This document shows, in pieces, positions 17,718-21,816 of a DNA stretch of 40,110 nt. The notes beneath the pieces are model-generated. The model was not told the origin of the DNA. It saw nothing but the letters and a program-made list of their open reading frames with translations, and did not search any database. The stretch is from NCBI GenBank assembly GCA_031260285.1, contig JAIRKD010000062.1, positions 1 through 40,110 on the forward strand, written 5' to 3'. Positions within the stretch are counted from its first letter, which is position 1. Each line of letters starts with the position of its first letter. This DNA is from Gemmatimonadota bacterium. GTDB lineage: Bacteria > Gemmatimonadota > Gemmatimonadetes > Longimicrobiales > Longimicrobiaceae. The position numbers were made by a program, and so were the translations under genes.

Positions 17718-19223
17718 TCACGTCAGCCAGAGGACGATGCCGAGCCCGGCGGCGAGGCCGATCGTCATGACCAGGGCGGTGATGTAGCAGATTGCCAGAA
17801 TGAGCATCACGATCAGCGGCGCCAGTGCGAGCAGGAGCAGAATCAGCGCCAGAGTGCGGATCGGATGCTGGAAGAACTCGCCCAGGTCCGGCCTGCCGCG
17901 GCGCCTGATTCCATGTCCCATCGCATTCACGCGCGCGATCCGATCGGTTGAGCGAGGTGCGAGGGCGAGGGTCATGCTGCGCGGGTTCGCGGCCGCCCCT
18001 CGGGCCGCTGCGGGGGCGCCCATGAACAGGTAGGCGTAAGCCTCTCCACCCTCGGGCAGATCCGGCGCTCCGATCTTCTCCAGGGCACGGGCGAAGGCGT
18101 CCGGCTCGCGCGCGAGCTTCACGGTCAGCGCGTCTGTCTGGAAGGCGCGGTTGCGCCATAGCATCCCCATCGGCGGCCCCAGGAAGATCGCGGTCCAGAG
18201 AAACAGGACGAGCTTGTAGAGCAGGGAAAGCAGCAGCGCCGGAATCCAGGGGATCAGAGCGACCTTGGCGATCCCACGCAACTGCGGGGGAACCCTGGCC
18301 AGGACTTCCTCCATATCAGGGATTGTCCTGCTGTCGAACGCGATTTCGAGACCCTCGGCGACCCGGCCCAGCCTCGCTGCGCCTTTCCCGGGCATTACGC
18401 TGGCAAGGCCGAGCTCGCCGAGCGTCCGCCAGGCAGACCGGCGCAGCGGCAGGTCCAACACTGTGAGGAAGAACGCAAACGTCTGGAACACCGCCATCAC
18501 AGCTGCGGCCACATGCAGGTCGCCAGCGCAGATGGCGGATACCAGCCGGGCGACAACGGCCTCGGTCTCGCTGCGGTTCAGGCCGAGCAGCAGGCCGCGC
18601 GTGACCAGGACCACGCCGTCCTCGGGCGAGCGCCCCAGCGCCGCGGCGTTGATCTGTGGCGCGTCGATCACGAACAGGCGCGGTGGCGGACAGCCCGCAC
18701 CGAGGGCGATTTCCTGCACGATGTTGGCGAGTTGGCGTTCCTCGGCATCCTGAAGGTTCGCCGGCCGGGCCTTCATGCGGTCGAGCAGATCCTGGCCACC
18801 CACGCGAGTGAAGAGACCACGAAGCCACAGCCAGACCAGCGCGCCCGCGAACAGCGCCGGAACGGTGACCGGCGCCATCTGGACAAGAGGACCGGTCAGG
18901 ACGCCGATATCCCTCAACCCATTGATCTTATCCAGGGACTCCAGTATGAGATCGAAGTGCGCCATCTGCCCGCGAGCGAACGCGTCGATCGCAGCGATGC
19001 CGGCGTGTGCGGCCGGCGCGGCAGGGATGGCGACGACCCGCAGGATCACGATCAGGATCGCCAGCACCAGCGGGGTGACGATGGCGCTGAGCACCAGGCC
19101 AACGCCGCCGGAGATCAGCAGGCAGATCAGCGAAAGCAGCCAGCCGCCGCGCCGCCGCCGCGCCAGTTCGTCGTAGAAGGTGACGCGCTCGATCCGGCCC
19201 GGTACCTCCTGACTCAACTTCAT
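17718..19223 (-). CDS. HtpX/Ste24-like M48 homologue with degenerate active site
   Basis: 501 residues. Membrane segments lie at about 27-66, 114-138, 322-350 and 458-500. The central part follows HtpX-type M48 peptidases: INAAALGRSPEDGVVLVTRGLLLGLNRSETEAVVA (about 191-225). Where the zinc motif HExxH belongs it has RLVSA (226-230). The downstream Glu ligand is also changed: RAFQTDA (359-365) instead of REF-x-ADA. The HP motif near the C terminus is APRSTDRIARVNAM (HP lost). So every metal ligand is missing while the fold is kept, and it should not be a protease. Its start overlaps the lemA-like stop by four bases (ATGA), so the two are coupled. It is probably an inner-membrane binding or scaffold partner for the LemA protein. 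Confidence 0.8.
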   Translation of the reverse strand: MKLSQEVPGRIERVTFYDELARRRRGGWLLSLICLLISGGVGLVLSAIVTPLVLAILIVILRVVAIPAAPAAHAGIAAIDAFARGQMAHFDLILESLDKINGLRDIGVLTGPLVQMAPVTVPALFAGALVWLWLRGLFTRVGGQDLLDRMKARPANLQDAEERQLANIVQEIALGAGCPPPRLFVIDAPQINAAALGRSPEDGVVLVTRGLLLGLNRSETEAVVARLVSAICAGDLHVAAAVMAVFQTFAFFLTVLDLPLRRSAWRTLGELGLASVMPGKGAARLGRVAEGLEIAFDSRTIPDMEEVLARVPPQLRGIAKVALIPWIPALLLSLLYKLVLFLWTAIFLGPPMGMLWRNRAFQTDALTVKLAREPDAFARALEKIGAPDLPEGGEAYAYLFMGAPAAARGAAANPRSMTLALAPRSTDRIARVNAMGHGIRRRGRPDLGEFFQHPIRTLALILLLLALAPLIVMLILAICYITALVMTIGLAAGLGIVLWLT

Positions 19224-19765
19224 AATTTGACACCGACGGGCCCACGCACTGCACCCTCCGCCTCATACATCGTCTGCGGCTGGAAACCGGCTGCTCCGGC
19301 GAGCAGCATATCGGGGATGCTGCCGATCGCGGTGTTATAGGTCATCACGCAGTCGTTGAAGTGCTGGCGTGCGAACGCGATGCGGTTCTCGGTGGAGGCA
19401 AGTTCCTCCTGCAACGCCAGCACGGTCTCGCTGGCCTTGAGCTGCGGATAGTTCTCGATGAGCATCATCAACCGGGAGAGAGCGCCGCCGAGCGCGCTTT
19501 CGGCAGCGCCGCGGGTGGCCACGTCATCGCCCGCCGACTGTGCCCTGGTCCGGGCCGCGACAACCGCATCCAGTGTAGCGCGCTCGTGGGCCATGTAGCC
19601 CTTCACACTCTCGACCAGATTGGGGATCAGGTCGTGGCGGCGGCACAGTTGTACGTCGATCTGCGACCATGCTGCACGAGCCTGCATCCGCAGCCGTACC
19701 AGGCGGTTGAAGGCCAGCACACCCCAGACCACGACCAGCGCGGCGACGCCCGGAACGATCCACAT
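19220..19765 (-). CDS. LemA family membrane protein
   Basis: 181 residues from ATG 19765. This start has AGGA upstream and gives MWIVPGVAALVVVWGVLAFNRLVRL, the usual single N-terminal transmembrane anchor. Upstream in-frame starts (19783, 19831) lack a site. The coiled-coil/helical domain shows AWSQIDVQLCRRHDLIPNLVESVKGY and the NxRIAFARQHFNDCVMTYNTAI pattern characteristic of LemA. It ends GFQPQTMYEAEGAVRG. LemA proteins often pair with an M48/HtpX peptidase; function is unknown and envelope-related roles are suggested. Here the partner peptidase is catalytically dead. Confidence 0.9.
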   Translation of the reverse strand: MWIVPGVAALVVVWGVLAFNRLVRLRMQARAAWSQIDVQLCRRHDLIPNLVESVKGYMAHERATLDAVVAARTRAQSAGDDVATRGAAESALGGALSRLMMLIENYPQLKASETVLALQEELASTENRIAFARQHFNDCVMTYNTAIGSIPDMLLAGAAGFQPQTMYEAEGAVRGPVGVKL

Positions 19766-19977
19766 GCCTGTTGTTCCTGTCATCTGAAGTTCGGGTGATG
19801 TTTCAGTTCCCCGTCCGCAGGCCGCGAGCATTGCGTCCTGCGTCGGGATGAGGGTTTATCTGCCCGCCCGCAGCCGGAGCAGAGGCAGGGATAGCCGCGA
19901 GTGCCAGCAGGTCCCGAAGCGCGGTGCAGGCCTGGCGGGTGTCCATGGCCCGGCTCTTTCCCGTTGCGAGTGCGCCG

Positions 19978-20631: not shown

Positions 20632-21732
20632 TCACGCGACAACGAGACCGAAATACGCCTTGTAGGAAGCCCCCTGCCCGCTGATGAGTCTGGTTTCAGC
20701 CTTGAAGCCGACGCCCTTCGACACGCTGTTGGGTGTCCGGGCTGCCAGGAGGACCATCTGCTTCGCGGTGAAGGTGGTTGCGTCCCGGCCGATCAGGTCA
20801 TCGCCCGTGTCCAGGACCCCATTGACAGCACCCACGATGGAGTCCTTCACCTCCATGAGACCCCATTCGACCCCGGCGGCAAGGATCGGCCCGATAGCCG
20901 GGACGGCAGTGACCGCACCGGCAACAACCTGTCCGGCCGCCACGACGCCCGCTTCCACTTTGTCGCGGTACTTGTTCGGATCGCCAAAATCGTTTTCCAT
21001 GATTGTGGACGATATTACGAGGCCGGCAGGTTTACCGCGATACAGTTCGATCAGATCAGGGCGCGATTCGCCTCCGTCGACATCCTCGTACACCCGCGTG
21101 GCGACGGTCCTCGTGCCGGTAGGCGACAATACACCGAAAATCGCGTACGGCTCATCCGAGTCCGACCCCTGATCCCAATCTGTCTCACCGAAACAGATCA
21201 GACCTGTGTAGTGAACCACGACCTGATTGAGGTCGATCGCGCCTGTATCGGGCCACCAATAGATCTGTCCACCCTGGAACTGGGTCGCGCGGCCGCCCTC
21301 GTCAAATGGCTGCTCGTCTGAAAGCGGGTAGCCCAGGTACGACTTCTCCCAGCCCATAGCCGCCCACCGATCGCGGATCGCGCCGTACACGATATGGGCA
21401 CCAGTGGTGGGGCTCCAGTAGATCGAGCCGCGCTCGAAGTGGTTATACCGCCCGATACCGTCCGGGCAGCCGGTCTCGTCGGTGATCGGGTAACCGAGCC
21501 CGCCTTCCGGTCCACCGTAGGCGAGGTAGCGTTTCAGAATGTCTCCGTACACCTCGAAGGTGCCTGCCGGTGAGGTGTAAAGATTGCCGCCATGCGGCCC
21601 GGTCTGGGCCTTGAGCTGTTCCAGCATCGCCACTGCCCTCGGCGTTTGTTCGCTCCTGACCTCCACGAATTTCGGCTTCGGCCAGATCACCCGTGCTGAC
21701 GCCAGGTCATCACGACGCGCTTTTTCAGGCAT
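20632..21732 (-). CDS. LGFP-repeat protein, likely surface or wall-associated
   Basis: 366 residues from ATG 21732, with GGAG six bases upstream; a TTG at 21744 is less likely. Two LGFP repeats lie at about residues 50-110 and 110-165, with [54 protein letters not shown] and [19 protein letters not shown] repeats are best known from cell-envelope proteins of mycolic-acid actinobacteria and some hydrolases. The C-terminal 200 residues, with an alanine/valine-rich hydrophobic stretch (about 255-280), are not recognised. No signal peptide is visible, so export is unclear. It lies between the lipoprotein and the LuxR regulator; an 18-bp palindrome sits 85 bases upstream. Confidence 0.75.
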
Positions 21733-21816
21733 TTTGATCTCCAATGCTGTTGAGGACGGGCGCTGCTTGTGTGAATGCCGCCGGAAAAACGGTAGTGGAG
21801 AGGTAAAAAGACAACA

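Follow-up and report, generated by a model that had tools for sequence, protein, structure and literature searches.

A cross-phylum family of predicted M48 pseudoproteases that may act with LemA as non-cutting membrane adaptors

We describe a family of M48 proteins whose catalytic site is degenerate in every member. In our reading, which we hold with moderate confidence, these are ancient pseudoproteases with a single origin among LemA-linked HtpX-like proteases, kept ever since, typically together with LemA, as a non-cutting adaptor or scaffold. The lineage, the predicted catalytic loss and the coupling to LemA are each supported by sequence comparison. One member lies in the window, by which we mean the whole stretch of 40,110 nucleotides analysed here, from a Gemmatimonadota contig (Table 1), where an earlier sequence-only reading had pointed to LemA coupled to an inactivated HtpX-like protein. 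LemA, a membrane protein, is widespread and tends to be regarded as the companion of M48 proteases. A partner that occurs naturally, is under selection and is protease-dead would separate the role of LemA from proteolysis and offer a clean system for studying LemA function, while M48 would, through this family, be represented among the membrane pseudoproteases. Among open-licence papers we found no description of an inactive LemA-linked M48, most subscription journals lying outside that search.

Table 1. Features of the window, with positions counted from its first nucleotide.
Feature	Position	Strand	Remarks
M48/HtpX-like pseudoprotease gene	17718..19223	-	Intact ORF, 501 aa, polytopic; zinc site degenerate (R226, L227, A230, A360, A422)
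HExxH site, codons 226-230 (RLVSA)	18534..18548	-	Position computed from the translation and the alignment to active M48s
Third zinc ligand site, codon 360 (Ala)	18144..18146	-	Alignment, with position from the translation
lemA	19220..19831	-	ORF; Pfam LemA 4.5e-53; candidate starts 19831, 19783 or 19765
ATGA overlap of lemA stop and pseudoprotease start	19220..19223	-	lemA upstream
DUF3558-like lipoprotein gene	19978..20526
Gene for a protein with three LGFP repeats	20632..21744		Pfam 1e-44

An M48 fold with a degenerate zinc site

The window gene is a single open frame, as had been proposed, and its translation contains all of the fold landmarks named in the sequence-only reading (INAAALGR, LNRSETEAVVA and RIARVNAM). 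Its catalytic positions were read off an alignment with 43 active LemA-linked M48s, all of which (43/43 sampled) carry HExxH, the ligand Glu and the HP motif. In the window protein, HExxH with its catalytic Glu is replaced by RLVSA, aligned as R226-L227-V-S-A230, the third zinc ligand in the ExxxD helix is Ala360 rather than the Glu of all 43 active proteins, and the His of the HP motif is A422, with the Pro retained. The three losses claimed from the sequence thus hold at the aligned positions. We rejected a frameshift or misassembly confined to the HExxH site, as the flanking residues on both sides align gap-free to relatives.

By profile and by predicted structure, the protein belongs to the M48 family (PF01435). 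Residues 160-271 match Pfam Peptidase_M48 above the curated cut-off (E=7e-10); NCBIfam HtpX models match up to 1e-27, with a best score of 97 bits against an equivalog cut-off of 355. The earlier reading had suggested structure prediction and comparison with HtpX, and in an AlphaFold2 model (mean pLDDT 82, pTM 0.78) the M48 core is retained, the best Foldseek matches in the PDB being HtpX 3cqb (probability 1.00), ZMPSTE24 and Ste24p. Since the Foldseek E-values are modest (best 9e-3) and full-length TM-scores are low, this match backs no more than the core domain. 3cqb is also matched by the profile of the whole family (E=2e-15). The M48-domain fold is what the window protein has in common with HtpX of the M48B group (3cqb from Vibrio; E. 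coli HtpX), an active heat-shock zinc protease.

A contaminant contig was considered and rejected: the trigger factor encoded on the window contig shares 63% identity with that of the sole same-genus genome compared and 48-60% with those of the family, and the contig therefore belongs to its genome. A search of a plasmid collection gave no match.

Homologues in several phyla

A scan of genome contigs with the single window protein as query found no relatives. The homologue set was built by searching at class level and by family, and by scanning named genome contigs with a 4-row alignment. This resulted in 17 further homologues, giving 18 with the window protein, from Gemmatimonadota, Acidobacteriota, and one each of the Alpha-, Gamma- and Betaproteobacteria (the last from Burkholderiales). 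Those from the class-level search align across most of their length and likewise have no HExxH. The family is rare: with the sampling used for the class, it occurs in 5 of 394 genomes, and it is found in 4/179 genomes of one family and in 6/249 of an acidobacterial order; among 300 genomes of the order of the Burkholderiales member and 289 of the class of the alphaproteobacterial one, the seed genome alone carried a member.

None of the 18 members has the catalytic Glu or the second His, and the ligand Glu is missing from all 17 that cover its site. Close homologues that retain HExxH had been named as what would speak for a recent loss; no full-length homologue retains it, and a recent loss was rejected. 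The window protein, inside the dead clade and with none of these three residues, is a member of the pseudo-M48 family. The claim that all zinc ligands are lost stands for the window protein and two others (L172 and L083), and not for the family in general, where the first His is kept in 15/18. At the level of sequence, then, what is lost family-wide is the catalytic Glu together with two zinc ligands out of three, the window protein being the extreme of its clade.

This pattern of retention raises another explanation, namely that a new site for catalysis or for binding a ligand or metal is built from the retained first His (His226), Asp residues, and an Arg that replaces the ligand Glu in 13 of the 17 members. 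Conservation is very high in the NGD and WRxRRYLAD motifs, and NGD, R357, R359, D364 and R428 are kept in nearly all members of the residue table. However, His226 and Arg360 are both missing from the window protein, and the His also from L172 and L083; because of these losses, the site would not be common to the whole family, and we consider new biochemistry of this kind improbable.

A single, old origin of the catalytic loss

In a maximum-likelihood tree computed without the catalytic columns, all 18 proteins fall in one clade (bootstrap 100, SH-aLRT 99) that sits inside the active LemA-linked M48s and a long way from classic HtpX, whose clade is separate from the LemA-linked group; a separate tree run gave the same result. 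The active LemA-linked proteins, its sister group in the tree, have the same M48 core, polytopic topology, LemA neighbour and N-terminal FFxxQxxxRR motif as the dead family, and this common motif agrees with the tree. By both its tree position and its overlap with lemA, the window gene belongs to the LemA-linked lineage. Its branch is long (1.29), for which reason its exact place within the dead clade is uncertain. LemA linkage is found on the earliest branches of the clade and has been lost on that of the Gemmatimonadaceae. As judged from these alignments and trees, the catalytic loss is old, a single event and clade-wide rather than locus-specific. The sequence-only reading had rightly seen inactivity, but as a feature of this locus, where the tree makes it the common property of a whole clade.

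Is the gene a relic, decaying beside a LemA left over from an active operon? The long branch of the window protein and the absence of all its zinc ligands would fit such a history. Against this stand the intact frame of 501 codons, a coding-like codon-position composition (G+C of 71/47/84%, resembling that of adjacent genes), the single cross-phylum clade, and the selection seen in relatives: in seven of eight homologue pairs, 59-97% identical and with dS of 0.07-1.7, dN/dS is 0.09-0.26 (one pair giving 0.09 at dS 0.36), and one 53%-identical pair gives 0.48. The values of 0.09-0.26 indicate that the dead form is maintained in these relatives, in line with the earlier view of a gene "maintained, not decaying" and opposite to the relaxed selection that had been named as evidence against it. 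For the window gene itself, which is without a close relative for dN/dS, support is limited to its intact frame and normal codon-position composition. Decay is therefore disfavoured, and we regard it as very unlikely.

Recurrent coupling to LemA

The partner in the window is an ordinary LemA (PF04011; 179.5 bits against a curated cut-off of 26.2), and the proposed ATGA overlap between its stop and the start of the M48 gene is present. The extent of lemA had been placed at 19765, which is a possible start and one of several, the frame being open to the ATG at 19831. Homologues with a dead M48 beside lemA had been suggested as a search, and the pairing does recur: lemA adjoins the dead M48 in 7 of 16 genomes checked, across three phyla. 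These are the window genome, four Acidobacteria, one Alphaproteobacterium and one Burkholderiales, in three arrangements: lemA first and overlapping in the window, the pseudoprotease first and then lemA in the Acidobacteria and the Alphaproteobacterium, and divergent genes in the Burkholderiales. With one to three lemA copies among several thousand genes per genome, repeated adjacency by chance is very unlikely. Furthermore, when all open frames around 18 loci were compared, no neighbour but LemA recurred from one phylum to another; generic ABC ATPase domains matched weakly, and within Gemmatimonadota alone. Around some 70 related active M48 loci, lemA likewise lies beside most, usually just upstream.

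The coupling is not universal, however, as 9/16 genomes have no adjacent lemA, among them most Gemmatimonadaceae members and one gammaproteobacterium. Some of these contigs stop close to the gene; nearly all loci come from draft metagenome assemblies, in which contig ends hide some neighbours. In two Acidobacteria with a lone pseudoprotease, LemA is found elsewhere in the genome and falls inside the clade of acidobacterial LemAs linked to dead M48s (support 95). In G623 and G744, the sole LemA found adjoins the pseudoprotease. That all LemAs next to dead M48s share one origin was also considered and is unsupported across phyla, where they form no single clade.

Elsewhere in the window genome (G000), at C17:52545-53616 on a different contig, is an active LemA-HtpX pair (HEFSH), and active LemA-linked M48s are also present in G252, G069 and G429. 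This co-occurrence would allow the dead M48, with its LemA, to regulate the active pair in the same cell by hetero-oligomerising with, activating or titrating it. MamO offers a precedent, as a degenerate protease that activates MamE non-catalytically (PMC4794232). In the acidobacterial genomes, however, no LemA adjoins an active M48, and a search of G465 at E<=1e-10 found no further M48 of this type. An active paralogue is therefore not a general requirement, to the extent that these draft genomes show, and we consider regulation of an active pair rather unlikely.

Two additional LemA genes are carried by the window genome, that of the active pair on C17 and one at C65:9089-9562.

A possible role as membrane adaptor or scaffold

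By analogy with the systems discussed below, the LemA-M48 module probably serves at the inner membrane as a scaffold or an adaptor for substrates, without proteolysis of its own. LemA would contribute one membrane helix and a helical bundle, and the predicted pseudoprotease is polytopic with the M48 domain fold kept; from their genomic linkage and co-occurrence, the two may form an inner-membrane complex. Within it, the M48 domain would bind membrane-protein substrates or partners without cutting them, much as rhomboid pseudoproteases or protease-dead YqgP hand substrates on to a second protease, for instance FtsH. For the latter, a non-catalytic substrate-adaptor role has been described for the YqgP-FtsH system (PMC7231995). 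The likeness is that of a membrane protease scaffold used as a non-catalytic adaptor; fold and protease class are unrelated, and it serves as an analogy only. The same holds for MamO, a degenerate protease in a bacterial membrane system that also has a LemA protein, MamQ, since MamO is a trypsin-like serine protease and not an M48. Among NCBIfam models, the window LemA matches best that of MamQ, a protein that works in forming the magnetosome membrane (PMC3905215), but it scores far under the MamQ cut-off (82 vs 250 bits). If a cross-phylum, single-origin family of LemA-linked pseudo-M48s is what these loci represent, the basic job of LemA could be membrane scaffolding or substrate capture rather than assistance to proteolysis, a proposal to which we give about an even chance.

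Other neighbouring genes

In one Gemmatimonadota subclade (L060:1845-4798, L061 and L077), a DUF4123 gene (type VI adaptor) immediately precedes the pseudo-M48 gene, and a PAAR gene is divergent from it. Recruitment of this subclade to a secretion locus is possible, and would speak for another use of the protein there than the one proposed above. Extended to the family, the same arrangement, seen in G252 and L077, might suggest an accessory of type VI secretion or polymorphic toxins, either as cargo or as an immunity-type membrane protein; yet type VI genes are near this one subclade only and absent at the other loci, which share LemA alone across phyla, and we take a type VI role for the family to be extremely improbable.

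A DUF3558-like lipoprotein is encoded near the pseudo-M48 both in the window and in G380 (L059:4221-4766). It was rejected as a shared neighbour, there being no BLASTP match between the two at 1e-8. The LGFP repeats encoded next in the window (Table 1) are best known from actinobacterial cell-wall proteins, and are unusual in Gemmatimonadota. Within genus g130 (L058:2890-4848 and L072:7481-9529), the genes after the pseudo-M48 encode a conserved ABC exporter (81% identical) and a protein resembling a SET domain.
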